From: Pseudooceanicola nitratireducens
GTDB lineage: Bacteria; Pseudomonadota; Alphaproteobacteria; Rhodobacterales; Rhodobacteraceae
Assembly (NCBI RefSeq): GCF_900109195.1
Contig: NZ_FNZG01000002.1
Coordinates: 876,191 to 940,190, forward strand
Length of the DNA: 64,000 bases
Direction of reading: 5' to 3'
Of the stretch, positions 46,396-50,791 are shown piece after piece. Both the position numbers and the translations under genes were made by a program. The notes under the pieces were generated by a model that did no database searches, was not told where the DNA came from, and was given only the letters and a program-made list of their open reading frames with translations. Each line of letters starts with the position of its first letter. Within the stretch, counting starts at the first letter, position 1.

Positions 46396-46773
46396 TCACA
46401 CGTCAGTGCTTTTCAGCCGTTGCGTAAGATATTCCCGAAGAACCACAGCCTGATTGTGATCGCGGTCTTTTGCAGCGTAGAGCAGAATGACCGGTCCTTT
46501 TCGACACCAGTCCAGGCACTCGCCTACTGCGTCTCGGTTATCTGCGAGTTCATGGAGGTAGCGATTTCGAAATTCGCCCCACTTTTCCCGGTCGTGGTCG
46601 AACCACTTCCTTAGGTTTGCGCTCGGGGCTACATTCTTGATCCAGGCATCGATCGAGAGTTCGTCCTTCGAAACACCTCGCGGCCATATGCCATCGACCA
46701 ATAGACGTGCACATGAGTTGTCTACTGGTGTATCGTAAACACGCTCTATCGAAATTCTTGCGGTTTCAACCAT
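46396..46773 (-). CDS. DUF488 family protein (YeaO-like)
   Basis: 125 residues from ATG 46773, which overlaps the haemoglobin gene stop by 8 bases; a longer frame exists but is a shadow of it. Seen: VDGIWPRGVSKDELSIDAWIKNVAPSANLRKWFDHDREKWGEF, the family hallmark, and VILLYAAKDRDHNQAVVL. Function unknown; the family is often beside globin and NO/nitrite-stress genes. Confidence 0.87.
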   Translation of the reverse strand: MVETARISIERVYDTPVDNSCARLLVDGIWPRGVSKDELSIDAWIKNVAPSANLRKWFDHDREKWGEFRNRYLHELADNRDAVGECLDWCRKGPVILLYAAKDRDHNQAVVLREYLTQRLKSTDV

Positions 46774-47227
46774 TGTCAGCTCGCGAAAGGCTGGGCACGC
46801 CATCACGATCGGCATCTTGGATGGCCATATTCAGAGATCGTGCTATCCGCTCGGCCCGTTCTATGACGTGCGCGGCCCCGGCGGGTGGACAGACTTCTAC
46901 TGCGGTTTCGCGGAAAAGGCTGAGCCAGCGTTCAAAGTGGCTCCAGCGGACTGGGAGCCCGATGTGCTTGGGAACCGGCGCGCCATGGTAGCGCCCCGTC
47001 ATCAGGGCTACTGATGACCAGAACGCTGTCATTCGGTCGAGGTGTGGTTCCCAATCGACAATGCGACTTTCGAAGATGGGACCCAGTTGGGCGTCGGATC
47101 TGACCTTCGCGTAGAACGCTTGAACAAGTTCGTGCAAGACCGCTTCGTCCAGTCCAGTTTCGGCGTGAAGTCGGGCCGTCATGGCTGGTCGCATCGATGG
47201 GACAGGGGATGTCTGTGCATGTGCCAT
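46766..47227 (-). CDS. Group III truncated haemoglobin
   Basis: 2-on-2 globin of 153 residues. Seen: AVLHELVQAFYAKVRSDAQLGPIFE, HLDRMTAFWSSVALMTGRYHGAPVPKHIGLP and proximal His in WSHFERWLSLFRETAVEVC. Such proteins are induced by NO or low oxygen and act in NO or peroxynitrite handling. A candidate NsrR operator lies 47 bp upstream. It heads the minus-strand series trHb3-DUF488-ccoSNOQP-DUF2189, whose gaps are small enough to be one transcript. Confidence 0.9.
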   Translation of the reverse strand: MAHAQTSPVPSMRPAMTARLHAETGLDEAVLHELVQAFYAKVRSDAQLGPIFESRIVDWEPHLDRMTAFWSSVALMTGRYHGAPVPKHIGLPVRWSHFERWLSLFRETAVEVCPPAGAAHVIERAERIARSLNMAIQDADRDGVPSLSRADNG

Positions 47228-47273
47228 CCAAATGCATCCTTGATTGCCTTTGCCTTAACGGAGTATGTGCTTT

Positions 47274-47296
47274 AATAGGTATTGTAAATACCAATT
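47274..47296. promoter_or_regulatory. Candidate NsrR operator (trHb3 / DUF6522)
   Basis: Near-perfect 23-bp palindrome; central TAGGTATTGTAAATACC between AA and AATT. Only two mirror pairs of positions fail. Resembles the known 11-1-11 NsrR design with an AT-rich core and shares 17 of 23 positions with the site upstream of nsrR. Lies in the divergent spacer, 47 bp from the haemoglobin start, 76 bp from the DUF6522 start. Confidence 0.65.
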
Positions 47297-47371
47297 TGTT
47301 GGCGCAGGCCGAGGCGAAAGCGCACAGGCGGATCCTCTCTGAGCCGGAGTGTGGTGCAAGCGAGGCTGGAA

Positions 47372-47641
47372 ATGAGTGAAGTGTCGTTGTCCGCAGAAGG
47401 ATATGTGGTTGATGCGCAGCTTTTGGCGCATGCTTTTGGGGTGTCGTTAGAGGCGGTGCGGGCCGAGATGCGTGATGGAATGATCACCAGCCGTTGCGAG
47501 ACCGGTGTCGGCACAGACGAGGGACGTTCCAGGATGACGTTCTACCGAGGTGACCGGGCATTCCGCATCGTCGTTTCAACGGATGGAACGGTGTTGTCGA
47601 GAAGCACCTTTCCAGTCGTGCCGTCCAGGGGCGAACAGTGA
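47372..47641 (+). CDS. DUF6522-family small protein
   Basis: 89 residues from ATG 47372. Seen: AEGYVVDAQLLAHAFGVSLEAVRAEMRDGMITSRCETGVGTDEGRSRMTFYRGDRAFRIVV, the pattern of small proteins found beside cbb3 and denitrification genes. The ITSRCETG segment with its single Cys is the conserved part. Divergent from trHb3 and sharing its operator. Function unknown. Confidence 0.75.
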   Translation: MSEVSLSAEGYVVDAQLLAHAFGVSLEAVRAEMRDGMITSRCETGVGTDEGRSRMTFYRGDRAFRIVVSTDGTVLSRSTFPVVPSRGEQ

Positions 47642-47647
47642 ACCTTG

Positions 47648-47676
47648 TTGACAACCCGACTTTCAGATTGAAGCAT
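47648..47676 (+). promoter_or_regulatory. Promoter of leader A
   Basis: TTGACA at 47648-47653, 17-bp spacer, AAGCAT at 47671. The same TTGAC hexamer stands at the same distance (35-36 nt) before the homologous leader B near 50786-50791. Confidence 0.45.
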
Positions 47677-47683
47677 GTCCGTC

Positions 47684-47835
47684 ATGATCAAGTTTGAGAT
47701 CATTTTTCGGTTTCTGCTTCTGAACCGCCCGTAACCCCGGGCGGTCTGTGTTGTTCTGATCTGAACGACCACCCGGGGATTTCTCAAGAACCTCCACTGA
47801 GAAACCGGGGTTTTGCGCCCCGAGCGGGGACGCAA
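47684..47835 (+). ncRNA. Structured 5' leader A of rnk-like gene
   Basis: About 150 nt before the 47836 gene, nearly identical at its start to the leader of the 50151-50606 gene. Contains hairpin 1 ACCGCCCG/CGGGCGGT (47724-47731 with 47738-47745) and hairpin 2 TTTCTCA-11 nt-TGAGAAA (47780-47786 with 47798-47804), framed by CGGGG (47774-47778) and CCCCG (47818-47822) next to the ribosome site. A 16-codon open frame ending NRP sits at 47684-47734. The matching stem in leader B has another sequence but keeps pairing, so RNA structure is conserved. Confidence 0.65.
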
Positions 47836-48297
47836 ATGACACTTCCGATACACGTTACGAATTCCCTAAGATCGCAGAACGTTGATACTTCTCGTCGAGA
47901 AGAGGACGTCTGGCTCACAGTAACCGACCAGTTTAATATCAGGCAGTTTTTGGCTTTTGCCGATACAGGGCGCATCACATATCCTTGCCAGCTGATCCAA
48001 TTGCTACGTCGAAAGCTGTCGGTCGCGCGTTGCGCCGACAATCCTGCACCTGGAAATTTGGCAACCATTGGTAGGCAAGTCAGATATAGTTTGGATGGCT
48101 TGCGTGTTTGCAACGGCCTCCTGGCTGTCGGCCTTATAAGTTCAGTTGGTGAGGTTCCGATCCACTCTATGGCGGGAGCAACGCTGATAGGTATGTCCGT
48201 CGGTCAATCCGCGACATTTTTGGGTTCGAGCGGGGTTACTCGAACAATAACCCTAATCGAAGTCTCCAGCTGCCATCTGAGGTCGACGAGTGCATAG
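47836..48297 (+). CDS. GreA/GreB C-terminal-like (Rnk-type) protein
   Basis: 153-residue protein with an N-terminal helical part and an FKBP-like GreA/B C-terminal fold: NLATIGRQVRYSLDGLRVCNGLLAVG and SMAGATLIGMSVGQSATFLG, where the LIG-x-x-x-G-x-x-A pattern is typical of Rnk/GreA. It aligns best with the 50151-50606 gene and shares its leader. Proteins of this group bind RNA polymerase; Rnk of E. coli influences nucleoside diphosphate kinase levels. Its 3' end overlaps the convergent mscS gene by 45 bp. Confidence 0.75.
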   Translation: MTLPIHVTNSLRSQNVDTSRREEDVWLTVTDQFNIRQFLAFADTGRITYPCQLIQLLRRKLSVARCADNPAPGNLATIGRQVRYSLDGLRVCNGLLAVGLISSVGEVPIHSMAGATLIGMSVGQSATFLGSSGVTRTITLIEVSSCHLRSTSA

Positions 48298-49272
48298 CTT
48301 TGGTTTTTCGCCATGCGATGCTTCTGATCGCGCTTTCTGGCTTTGGTTGACCTTGAATAGTTTGGTCAGCTCTGTCGTAAGCGCGACACCGCTTTCAAAA
48401 TCCTCCGATGAACCAGCTAACTCGACATTCATAGATGGAGCCGGCACTCTTGCTCGCCTCAAGACCTTGTCCACATAAGAAAGAACTTCGTCGCGACTGT
48501 CGGCATCAGTCTCAAATTTCGTCAGCCAGAACCGCAGCGCATACGTCGTCGTAACCGGCCCAAGTTCCACTACCTTCACGTCGGGTGCAGGCTCTGACTT
48601 AATGAGCTTCGCTGAAGCGGTGGCTTCCAGCAGCAGGCCCTTCGCTATTTCTACGGAAACCACCCGCGACAGCTTGACCAAGACATGTGCTCGGTATTGC
48701 GGCTTGGGTGCCGAGTAGTTCGTAATACGCCGCCGAGCGATCTGACTGTTAGGTAGGATGACGTAGGTTGAATCAAGAGTAAGCAACCTGGTCGTTCGCC
48801 ATCCTATCTCGATGACTCGTCCGCGAGCAGCTTCATCGATGTCCACCCAATCGCCGATCCTGTATGGGCCTTCGATGCCAAGTGCGACCCCTGACAAGGT
48901 GTCTGCCACGACGTTCCTGACAGCGAACCCGAGCACGGCCAGTATAAGGCTTGATCCAGCAAGTGCGCCGACTAATCCTTGTTCCAGCATGGATGCAGCT
49001 GATGCGAAGAGAGCGGCAAAGAAGAAAAGAACCGCCATCAAGTCTTTGAATAGTTTTGGGTAGGGGCGATTTTGTGAGCGTCCGTGATCCATGGCAAAGC
49101 CGAAAATACGACTGCCGAACCACGCTACGCCGATATAGGTCAGTAGTGAACCGGCGGTTTCAACGCGGAAACCGAGGTATGGTTCTACTTCATGACGATA
49201 GATCCCGATGAGCACACCGCTGGTCATGATGCCAAGTGGCCATGTGAATCTGCGCGCGATGGACCAGATCAT
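48253..49272 (-). CDS. Small-conductance mechanosensitive channel (MscS family)
   Basis: Inner-membrane tension-gated channel, 339 residues from ATG 49272 (AAGGAG upstream). Seen: three to four TM helices, the pore helix and beta domain ALAGSSLILAVLGFAVRNVVADTLSGVALGIEGPYRIGDWVDIDEAARGRVIEIGWRTTRL, and VILPNSQIARRRITNYS. The start overlaps the stop of the zinc-ribbon gene (AATGA), so they are co-translated. Confidence 0.9.
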   Translation of the reverse strand: MIWSIARRFTWPLGIMTSGVLIGIYRHEVEPYLGFRVETAGSLLTYIGVAWFGSRIFGFAMDHGRSQNRPYPKLFKDLMAVLFFFAALFASAASMLEQGLVGALAGSSLILAVLGFAVRNVVADTLSGVALGIEGPYRIGDWVDIDEAARGRVIEIGWRTTRLLTLDSTYVILPNSQIARRRITNYSAPKPQYRAHVLVKLSRVVSVEIAKGLLLEATASAKLIKSEPAPDVKVVELGPVTTTYALRFWLTKFETDADSRDEVLSYVDKVLRRARVPAPSMNVELAGSSEDFESGVALTTELTKLFKVNQSQKARSEASHGEKPKLCTRRPQMAAGDFD

Positions 49273-49493
49273 TGCACCAACTCCTTTGCCAACCGGGATG
49301 GACGCTGCTTGCGGCAAGAAAGACAGACAGCAGAAGTCGTCGGTTGAACAGTAGTCTCTCCGCATCTCACACAGAGATGCCCAGTTCTGGTGCTGGGAAC
49401 TCGTAGAGGGTGGTGGCAACTCGGGCAGCGCGTGGCGGCGGCACGCGGCACGGATTCCTTACAAGCGGGGCAGGTGTTTGGTAGGAAGCGCAT
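49269..49493 (-). CDS. Small double zinc-ribbon protein
   Basis: 74 residues from ATG 49493: MRFLPNTCPACKESVPRAAA, CPSC, CVRCG and CLSC form four CxxC pairs, enough for two zinc ribbons. The longer frame to 49607 has no similarity. The stop overlaps the mscS start. Not a known regulator; zinc-ribbon proteins often mediate protein or nucleic-acid contacts. Confidence 0.7.
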   Translation of the reverse strand: MRFLPNTCPACKESVPRAAATRCPSCHHPLRVPSTRTGHLCVRCGETTVQPTTSAVCLSCRKQRPSRLAKELVQ

Positions 49494-49642
49494 TATGACA
49501 CTCTTGTCGTTCCGTTCTTGGTAGGGCGTGCAGTCACACGCGAATTCCGACCCGGAAGGAGTGTCAGCGTGGCTAATGCCGCTGGAACCTCCCTCCGGGC
49601 GCGACATGCGCGTCGTTCAGCCCTCTCGCCTGATGTCGCATC

Positions 49643-50083
49643 TCAGCCCTCATTCGGTGCTGCACAGGCAACATCCGCCACGTTCAAAATTGACAGTTCC
49701 CGGACCTCGCCCGAGCGGGTCTGCCAGGCGAACTTGGCACCTTGGGCGAGGCCAATGAGAGCGACTCCAATGGGGGTCATCACGGATATCTTTCCAACCG
49801 AGATGTCGGCGTCTTCGGGATATACGGGCGTAACCGTTTTCTCTTCGCCGGTTGTTTCGTCGCGATACGTGACGTTTCGGCCAATTGCGACGACATCATT
49901 CGGCACCTTCCGTGTTGGAACGATGCGAGCTCGACCCAGCTCGTCCAGCAGTAGGTCCGCAATCATCGGATTGCGGGAATAAGCGGCTTCAGCCATGGCT
50001 TCGAGTCGGCTCAGTGTCCTCTCATCAAGGACGACTTTGGGTCTGCGAGATGTTGCAGTCTTCGTTCTCAGAGGTTTGTTCAT
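49643..50083 (-). CDS. rnk: Nucleoside diphosphate kinase regulator Rnk
   Basis: 146 residues: basic N-terminus, RPKVVLDERTLSRLEAMAEAA, LLDELGRARIVPTRKVPNDVVAIGRNVTYRDETTGEEKTVTPVYPEDADISVGKISVMTPIGVALIGLAQGAKFAW, the full Rnk/GreA-like profile. AGGAGAAACCA precedes ATG 50083. Second gene after the 50151-50606 paralogue, 67 bp apart. Confidence 0.87.
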   Translation of the reverse strand: MNKPLRTKTATSRRPKVVLDERTLSRLEAMAEAAYSRNPMIADLLLDELGRARIVPTRKVPNDVVAIGRNVTYRDETTGEEKTVTPVYPEDADISVGKISVMTPIGVALIGLAQGAKFAWQTRSGEVRELSILNVADVACAAPNEG

Positions 50084-50150
50084 TGGTTTCTCCTTCGCCG
50101 CGACAGAGATGTGCGGAGTCTGAAAATTGGTTCTTCTAATACTATCTGGA

Positions 50151-50606
50151 TCAGGTCGCGTTTGGACTGACGTCGAGCACGACCACTGTGTCGATCTGGC
50201 CGTCTTCCCGAAGCAGGGGGACCTTTTGGAGGGCCCGCATGCCGATAAGCGTAGCTCCCAACAGAGATGTGACGAGAATGTTTCCCGGGTGCGGGAGTGG
50301 GTCCAGACTTAGGACGCCGCTACGGGCACCCTCTCCGCTGATCATGTAGGATACCAGTCGACCTGAAATGGCCAGATCCGATGGGACAGGCTCGTCGACA
50401 TGCGCCGAAATCCTGAGCTTGTGTCGCAGAAAGCCCTGGAGCATCGGTGGGTTTGCGGCGAAGCGCGTCCCCTGTGTGTCAAGCAAGGTCTGAATCCCAC
50501 GTCTGTCCTTGGTTGTCAGGAAATACCCCCGACGGCTCGTGGCACGACGCACACGTTGGCGAAAAGTCTCATAGTGGCTCGGCTTGGGTATGGGGGCGTT
50601 GAACAT
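50151..50606 (-). CDS. GreA/GreB C-terminal-like (Rnk-type) protein
   Basis: 151 residues. N-terminal TFRQRVRRATSRRGYFLTTKDRRGIQTLLD, C-terminal GreA-type PSDLAISGRLVSYMISGEGARSGVLSLDP, then HPGNILVTSLLGATLIGMRALQKVPLL. GGGAGAA stands before ATG 50606 at the end of the folded leader. Paralogue of the 47836-48297 protein with the same leader and promoter. Probably stress or growth-phase modulation of transcription. Confidence 0.77.
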   Translation of the reverse strand: MFNAPIPKPSHYETFRQRVRRATSRRGYFLTTKDRRGIQTLLDTQGTRFAANPPMLQGFLRHKLRISAHVDEPVPSDLAISGRLVSYMISGEGARSGVLSLDPLPHPGNILVTSLLGATLIGMRALQKVPLLREDGQIDTVVVLDVSPNAT

Positions 50607-50756
50607 GCCATTTCTCCCGGGGCGCTAAAGCCCTCGATCTCAAGTTGCATTTGTTTGAGATGCCCCGGTTGGTCGTGGACGCGACTATGCGCGGACCGCC
50701 CGGGGGACCGGGCGGTTCAGAAGCTGAAACCGAAAATGATTCTCATGCTTGACCAT
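50607..50756 (-). ncRNA. Structured 5' leader B of rnk-like gene
   Basis: Homologous to leader A. Minus-strand TTGACT promoter hexamer at 50791-50786. Hairpin 1 ACCGCCCG/CGGGCGGT at 50716-50709 with 50702-50695. Hairpin 2 ATCTCAA-11 nt-TTGAGAT at 50661-50655 with 50643-50637, framed by CCGGGGC (50668-50662) and GCCCCGG (50623-50617). The last bases of the outer stem run into GGGAGAA, so folding may hide the ribosome site. Confidence 0.65.
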
Positions 50757-50791
50757 GCCACCCAGCGTAGACTCCGCGCCCAGTAAGTCAA

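Follow-up and report, generated by a model that had tools for sequence, protein, structure and literature searches.

A conserved leader peptide within a candidate ribosome-controlled attenuator upstream of Rnk-like genes in Rhodobacteraceae

The stretch of Pseudooceanicola nitratireducens DNA analysed here (the window; 64,000 nucleotides (nt) of contig NZ_FNZG01000002.1, positions 876,191 to 940,190) carries two Rnk-like genes, gene A (47836..48297, + strand, 153 amino acids) and gene B (50151..50606, - strand, 151 amino acids), which are preceded by alignable 5' leaders, leader A at 47684-47838 (+) and leader B at 50756-50604 (-). We propose, at a probability of roughly 0.7, that each leader is a ribosome-controlled attenuator of translation initiation in which a pause on a short upstream open reading frame (uORF) frees the ribosome site of the Rnk-like gene. 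The leaders combine conserved peptide coding, a fixed promoter spacing and conserved RNA pairings, with covariation in helix 2:3 and in helix 3:4 of one subgroup, and the modelled product has an Rnk fold. Ribosome slowing on the peptide would probably decide whether a protein expected to bind RNA polymerase gets made. If the proposal is right, these elements form a leader-peptide family with two target classes, linking ribosome speed to Rnk/GreA-fold proteins, whose triggers are, to our knowledge, poorly known, and a conserved sequence before genes annotated as hypothetical in four annotated plasmid records is given a reason. The peptide core, the RNA segments and the codon window are precise enough that reporters could test them directly.

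A preliminary description of this DNA, which had aligned the two leaders over about 150 nt, proved accurate in its account of their shared parts. Both have TTGAC at almost the same distance, 36 nt (leader A, 47648..47652, +) or 35 nt (leader B, 50787..50791, -) 5' of the uORF ATG; both open with a near-identical 60 nt, including TTTTCGGTTT and CTTCTGAACCGCCCG; both have a first hairpin, identified here as the GC hairpin ACCGCCC/GGGCGGT, and a GACCA box; and the second stem differs in its letters (TTTCTCA/TGAGAAA in A, ATCTCAA/TTGAGAT in B) yet pairs in each. What had been overlooked is that the near-identical 60 nt are a short open reading frame (ORF) with a coding signature, 47684-47734 (+) in leader A, where it encodes MIKFEIIFRFLLLNRP before the stop, and 50756-50685 (-) in leader B, where it encodes MVKHENHFRFQLLNRPVPRAVRA before the stop; the start coordinate given for the feature, 47684, is the ATG of the short ORF of leader A. 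The covariance-model search of relatives proposed at that time yielded more copies and covariation, with matches in 32 of 394 sampled genomes of the family, own genome counted; the likeness of the two leaders exceeds chance. The suggestion of a cis-acting switch or attenuator controlling Rnk/GreA-like proteins held in part, in that further copies, covarying stems and the Rnk fold favour an attenuator, whereas a switch made of RNA alone is disfavoured because the best-conserved part encodes a peptide.

Our covariance model of the leader, R1, gave 90 matches of at least 95 bits, corresponding to 77 distinct leaders and 56 distinct peptides from 75 of 81 sources; this is the less biased of our two counts, although R1 was itself trained on leaders picked by pattern and 13 of the matches duplicate the letters of another. 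The peptide core reads RFxLLNR in 87 matches, RFLLLTR in two and RFLLLHR in one, T or H replacing N14 in these three, and 89 of the 90 keep the uORF ATG and likewise 89 have TTGAC 28-40 nt upstream of the uORF. The second count comprises 73 leaders, obtained from 75 matches to the peptide pattern R[FYLI]xLLN after removal of two, one cut at the end of its locus and one due to chance, so that the invariance of R9, L12, L13 and N14 in this set is by construction. Across codons 8-13 the 73 distinct leaders present 32 nucleotide haplotypes that specify 9 peptides, column entropy averages 1.01 bits at third positions and 0.18 elsewhere (permutation p 0.00075), and codon pairs separated by a single change are synonymous in 1212 cases and not in 131, compared with 534:1194 for random changes. 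Since the variation sits at third codon positions and leaves the amino acids nearly unchanged, we conclude that the peptide is under selection. Leu12 is written with five codons (CTT, CTG, TTA, CTA, TTG) and Leu13 with three, and residue 11 is variable (L, P, Q or R). Codons 14-15 (AAC CGC) are invariant to the letter, as expected if their bases double as RNA segment 1. Relative to crude background usage taken from long-ORF calls, F10 is biased to TTT (68/73; background 31%) and L12 to CTT (37/73; background 17%), and R9 is CGG or CGA in 71/73; this bias at codons 9-12 could reflect slow codons or RNA constraint. In 15/73 leaders the stop of the uORF follows codon 16 and lies between segments 1 and 2; in the other 58 it follows one of codons 21-27. 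A leader in a metagenome-assembled genome (MAG; L050, 5809-5961, +) has ATA in place of the uORF ATG with the rest intact, possibly through decay or as a natural start-codon mutant.

The promoter is held at a fixed distance from this peptide. TTGAC stands 34 nt before the uORF ATG in 32 of the 73 leaders, 35 nt in 29 and 36 nt in 11, and is absent in one (L078). With the A of the uORF taken as +1, T-12 occurs in 47/73, A-11 in 59/73 and T-7 in 62/73, which is the standard -10 position for transcription starting at the AUG itself; leader B carries a -10-like element, TACGCT (50764..50769, -), one base further upstream than these consensus positions. A Shine-Dalgarno (SD)-like motif precedes the uORF in 16/73 leaders. 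From the fixed TTGAC and -10 spacing we infer that transcription probably begins at the uORF AUG or no more than one or two nucleotides away from it, which would make the uORF leaderless.

Four RNA segments support exclusive pairings, either 1:2 together with 3:4, the latter covering the ribosome site, or 2:3. Leader A (+) has segment 1, ACCGCCC, at 47724..47730, segment 2, CCCCGGGCGGTC, at 47735..47746, segment 3, GACCACCCGGGG, at 47767..47778, the inner hairpin TTTCTCA/TGAGAAA at 47780..47804, and segment 4 with the ribosome-site region, CCCCGAGCGGGG, which is partly self-complementary, at 47818..47829. In leader B (-) segment 1 lies at 50710..50716, segment 2 at 50694..50705, segment 3, GACCAACCGGGG, with one broken pair against segment 2, at 50663..50674, and segment 4 with the SD sequence, GCCCCGGGAG, at 50614..50623. 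Helix 1:2 (ACCGCCC with GGGCGGT) is paired in 95.5% of alignment cells. Helix 2:3, between segment 2 and a segment 3 of the form GACCxCCCGGGG located 3' of the uORF stop, is paired in 92.8% with four pairs changed on both sides, and its covariation (0.114 versus 0.094 shuffled) was reached in 2/500 shuffles and exceeds that of all six slides. In subgroup A, 3:4 consists of an eight-pair outer helix and a six-pair inner stem, 95.7% paired, with 4 compensated pairs and 0/500 shuffles as high, and in subgroup B an anti-SD CUCCUC pairs with GAGGAG (95.8%) and the adjoining hairpin beside the SD is compensated at 4/5 pairs; a third subgroup places UCUCCC opposite GGGGGGA, as read by eye and uncounted. 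The alignments were A4 (54 rows hand-thinned of near-copies, 52 of them from the set, with the two leaders of the window substituted for their own-genome copies), A6 (30/37 leaders of subgroup A, to which the own-genome copy of leader A, a subgroup-C member, was added) and A7 (25/25 subgroup-B leaders), the 11 leaders of subgroup C being uncounted as a group. Across the 73 leaders the duplex of segment 3 with the SD region has a median energy of -14.9 kcal/mol and a median z of -2.2, with z < -1.64 in 55%; an SD-like motif before the main gene in 73/73 is by construction, since starts were selected on it.

In the putative mechanism the transcript would start at or near the uORF AUG and yield a leaderless leader peptide. 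With a ribosome that completes the uORF unhindered, or with no ribosome at all, the leader would fold into hairpin 1:2 and helix 3:4, and 3:4 (plus the neighbouring hairpin in one subgroup) would conceal the ribosome site of the Rnk-like gene, the OFF state. A ribosome paused with codons F10-L13 in its P site would instead mask segment 1 and leave segment 2 free to pair with segment 3, releasing the ribosome site, the ON state. The pause would be set by the peptide core R-F-x-L-L-N-R and would most likely report slowed or inhibited translation, the sensor is likely the translating ribosome rather than an RNA-only switch, and the product would be an Rnk-like factor expected to bind RNA polymerase. 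By analogy, the leader may work like an ermC/trpL-like attenuator acting on translation without a poly-U terminator. In ermC-type attenuators, a short leader peptide, exclusive 1:2/2:3/3:4 helices and a ribosome site in segment 4 make the position of the ribosome the switch, and the present leaders resemble them in having a short leader peptide, exclusive helices (1:2 without covariation, 2:3 with some measures no higher than controls) and the proposed switching, the short 5' ORF having a coding signature across the 73 leaders. A ribosome site in segment 4 is a candidate likeness, with pairing conserved in subgroups A and B and no computed change in leader A of the window. They differ in that the uORF is probably leaderless, the peptide is unrelated and the genes that follow encode Rnk-fold proteins in Gram-negative bacteria.

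We folded the 73 leaders with all sequence upstream of the ribosome's front edge removed, the edge being placed 16 nt from the first P-site base. The expected number of 2:3 pairs was 5.7 in the free leader, 9.4 with codon 10 in the P site, 2.6 with codon 14 and 0 with codon 17; helix 2:3 is thus dominant with the P site at codons 10-13 and collapses from codon 14, where segment 3 re-pairs with the ribosome-site region. This switch-capable codon window coincides with the residues kept by selection. Between P11 and P16 the SD region gains a mean of 2.80 pairs, versus -0.27 for 292 leaders with a shuffled middle; pair counts served as the measure because mean SD accessibility discriminated weakly.

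Several of our results weigh against ribosome-controlled attenuation. The switch threshold of >3 pairs is passed by only 47% of the 73 leaders (5% of the 292 shuffled). The ribosome site of leader A sits in a local CCCC-GAGC-GGGG hairpin, where its computed accessibility is unresponsive to ribosome position at 0.34 in all ten states; that of leader B stays at ~0.5, with only the 3:SD pairs changing; and SD accessibility averaged over all leaders, 0.21 at the outset, increases only to 0.30 at P11 and comes back up to 0.30 at P25, which lies beyond the proposed window. In equilibrium folds computed with no ribosome, the average state already holds much 2:3 mixed with 1:2, so that an OFF state without translation would depend on co-transcriptional folding. 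Among the pairings, 1:2 is conserved without both-sided change and its letters are also coding, the both-sided pair count of 2:3 (4) is matched by 2/6 slides and its further pair types are equalled by 133/500 shuffles, the anti-SD helix of subgroup B has one-sided changes only with the covariation in the neighbouring hairpin, and the shuffle controls ignore kinship. The -10 element of leader A (AAGCAT) is itself weak.

A starvation attenuator of the trpL/leuL kind overlaps with our proposal, sharing the RNA switch and differing in the signal: uncharged leucine, phenylalanine or arginine tRNA would stall the ribosome on the FRFLLL codons. These codons are placed where a stall would free segment 2, Leu12 and Leu13 are retained through their five and three codons, and R9, F10 and L12 tend to use less common codons. 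The geometry is also similar to that of E. coli trpL and leuL, with candidate regulatory codons lying upstream of segment 1 and within it and, in the 15 leaders noted above, a stop between segments 1 and 2; the E. coli LeuL peptide is said to hold an RF..LLLLN stretch. However, the RFxLLNR core conserves four different residues rather than a run of the one amino acid made by the operon, position 11 varies, the leaders lack a terminator, and the downstream Rnk-like genes are not biosynthetic, which together make this signal unlikely.

Transcription attenuation that depends on Rho or a terminator and is coupled to translation of the uORF, of the kind reported for duf1127_1 of S. meliloti (PMC12218461) or for rnk/greA leaders (PMC2965389), also appears rather improbable. 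uORF control of a DUF1127 gene has been demonstrated in another alphaproteobacterium (PMC12218461), DUF1127 genes here are likewise preceded by uORFs (see below), and segments 1-2 are C-rich. According to the available part of that report, the duf1127_1 attenuator responds to tetracycline and chloramphenicol, and its uORF, which is 29 amino acids long, has its own SD and follows a 5' leader of 30 nt, operates through premature termination that is RNA- and not peptide-dependent (PMC12218461); the likeness is that in both cases an alphaproteobacterial DUF1127 gene is preceded by a uORF, whereas the present class has TTGAC at 34-36 nt in 72/73, the rarity of SD-like motifs described above and constraint on the peptide. 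Between segment 1 and the gene the longest T-run is 2-5 nt in the 73 leaders, with no poly-U, and an intrinsic terminator was accordingly rejected; in addition, segment 3 and the ribosome-site region are complementary across subgroups whose sequences differ. The rnk and greA leaders of Proteobacteria, bacilli and Clostridia (Naville and Gautheret 2010, PMC2965389) resemble ours in attenuating the same protein superfamily, but they are terminator/antiterminator elements for which the accessible text mentions no leader peptide, and the present leaders have neither a U-run terminator nor an Rfam match (0 at the gathering cut-off in the window or in nine loci jointly holding both leader classes; two chance-level matches below it). 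On these two counts the present leader appears unlike the rnk leader of other bacteria, which attenuates transcription (PMC2965389). A uORF attenuator candidate from the same order, the uORFC-8-2 cysS motif of Rhodobacterales, is described in the available text as having tandem Cys codons and a terminator (PMC8632094), and differs in these and in its gene. Among the matches listed from open-licence PMC literature, subscription papers being outside the scope, none describes the present leader, and the strings FRFLLLNR, RFLLLNR and RFLLLNRP do not occur there.

An RNA-only element (a riboswitch or protein-binding leader with an incidental ORF) would fit the stable, conserved hairpins with their covariation, the letter-invariant N14 and R15 codons among the 73 and the class-2 leaders described next, which keep letters as much as residues, but the third-position pattern and synonymous excess at codons 8-13, the retained ATG and the stops that fall after segment 2 or in the gap between 1 and 2 make it highly improbable, and we set it aside on the codon test.

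A second class of leaders surfaced as weak matches to the class-1 model. Its peptide is typically M-T-M-F-S-L-H-T-R-F-L-L-N-A-G-N-T-L-N-R-R before the stop (consensus ending RFLLxAGxxLNRR), and in 36 of 41 such leaders a crude motif picks out a DUF1127-like frame downstream, one of these genes being confirmed by Pfam and two by public annotation. R is AGG in 40/40 and LNR is CTG AAC CGC in 40/40. Class-2 leaders share segments 1-3, with 2:3 96.2% paired and no covariation above control, and their promoter is, we presume from its motif, RpoH-like. The class-2 model matches leader A of the window (E 4e-9, a rough value), and the two classes therefore look related. Strong class-2 matches (>=78 bits) occur in 26 of 388 sampled family genomes, and the classes co-occur in 22 genomes (Fisher p 2e-24, with the samples treated as one set of 388 and kinship uncorrected). 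Class-2 leaders with LNRR-ending peptides and a GC hairpin lie before DUF1127 genes in L106 (5389-5517, -), L178 (11003-11131, +) and L177 (10939-11067, +), with TTGAAA/TTGATA...ATAT in promoter-like spacing to the uORF ATG and near Rnk-like leaders, a nearness that is biased because most loci were fetched for an Rnk-like gene or its leader. Tentatively, RFxLLNR may represent a new family of regulatory nascent peptides made from leaderless AUGs, whose ribosome pausing switches on Rnk-like secondary-channel factors and DUF1127 regulators in hypoxic or denitrifying Rhodobacteraceae, a ribosome-to-RNA-polymerase stress relay that is in part plasmid-borne; we hold this wider picture to be possible and somewhat doubtful.

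Two further peptide types, read by hand, precede other Rnk-like genes, MITVSILFRIFLQNRPLPGAV before its stop and one ending GSLLNRPLPRAGG…. Another leader peptide (FRIFLQNRPLPGAV before the stop in L112) precedes an additional Rnk-like paralogue, which has a DRRAL motif, in L112 (4414-4574, -), L101 (1655-1813, -), L156 (341-500, +) and L151 (1501-1661, +). A third, divergent leader (…GSLLNR…) stands before the second of two tandem Rnk-like genes in L083 (6613-6770, +) and L055 (1718-1875, -), each tandem gene thus having its own leader.

The Rnk-like assignment of the products rests on fold and profile comparison, used because Pfam gave no usable match: neither protein A nor protein B matched GreA_GreB or Rnk_N at E 0.001, 2 of 15 relatives matched GreA_GreB with a best E of 0.015, and the profile match to 3BMB was weak (E 0.048). 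An AlphaFold (AF2) model of protein B, built on a 15-row alignment, has a predicted local distance difference test score (pLDDT) of 87, and Foldseek aligned it with GreA/GreB-like 2PN0 (E 1.6e-7) and Rnk 3BMB (E 3.7e-6; template modelling (TM) scores 0.67/0.74, root-mean-square deviation 2.6). As modelled, protein B has the Rnk/GreA fold. A canonical Rnk gene (Rnk_N plus GreA_GreB by Pfam; 49643..50083, -) lies downstream of gene B, and the covariance model and the sequence revealed no class-1 leader before it. A canonical rnk also follows in Alloyangia pacifica and twice in Sulfitobacter indolifex, and its cluster is present in 27/80 loci by crude ORF calls, the cluster being named from one member.

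Matches to leader B DNA occur in 9/60 related genomes and matches by protein search in 11/100, own genome counted in both. Beyond the family R1 matched only the window's own genome, 1/385 class genomes and 1/249 phylum genomes under Infernal's stricter filters. Genome contigs of 84,980 species were scanned for relatives of the downstream proteins, and the best 80 of 91 confirmed stretches were kept as loci; their titles name Pseudooceanicola, Roseovarius, Rhodovulum, Sulfitobacter, Limimaricola, Paracoccus and other genera that we take to be Rhodobacterales, the exceptions being MAGs named to phylum level only and two titles, Enemella and Carideicomes. A leader-like motif precedes the matched gene in 78/80 loci, with none in L081 and a decayed one in L077. 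The 1:2 core pattern GAACCGCC-N3-6-CCCCGGGCGG occurs 14 times in 9/149 family genomes (reversed control 0); one occurrence, L164, lies inside a coding region without such a uORF and was rejected as looking like chance. Relatives are also carried on Rhodobacterales plasmids (7 records by DNA, 8 by protein), one of the 8 protein-matched plasmids being typed conjugative, and transposase genes are nearby in 2/4 annotated plasmid records.

Genes in the window encode a cbb3 oxidase, a globin, a ferredoxin and a molybdopterin oxidoreductase, and on an A. pacifica plasmid cbb3 genes, hmpA and nirK all lie within 12 kb; the cbb3, globin, hmpA and nirK neighbourhood makes hypoxia, nitrate respiration or nitrosative stress a plausible setting. 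At 46399-48294 of the window, genes for DUF488, a truncated globin, DUF6522 (47351-47641) and the Rnk-like protein are clustered beside the cbb3 oxidase. In L009 (1485-1637, +) and L010 (1481-1633, +) intact leaders precede genes shortened to 32 and 88 amino acids, which suggests decaying paralogues. On Leisingera plasmids (L176, L179) an Rnk-like gene, with its leader in L176, lies near hfq, HipA-type toxin-antitoxin genes and transposases.

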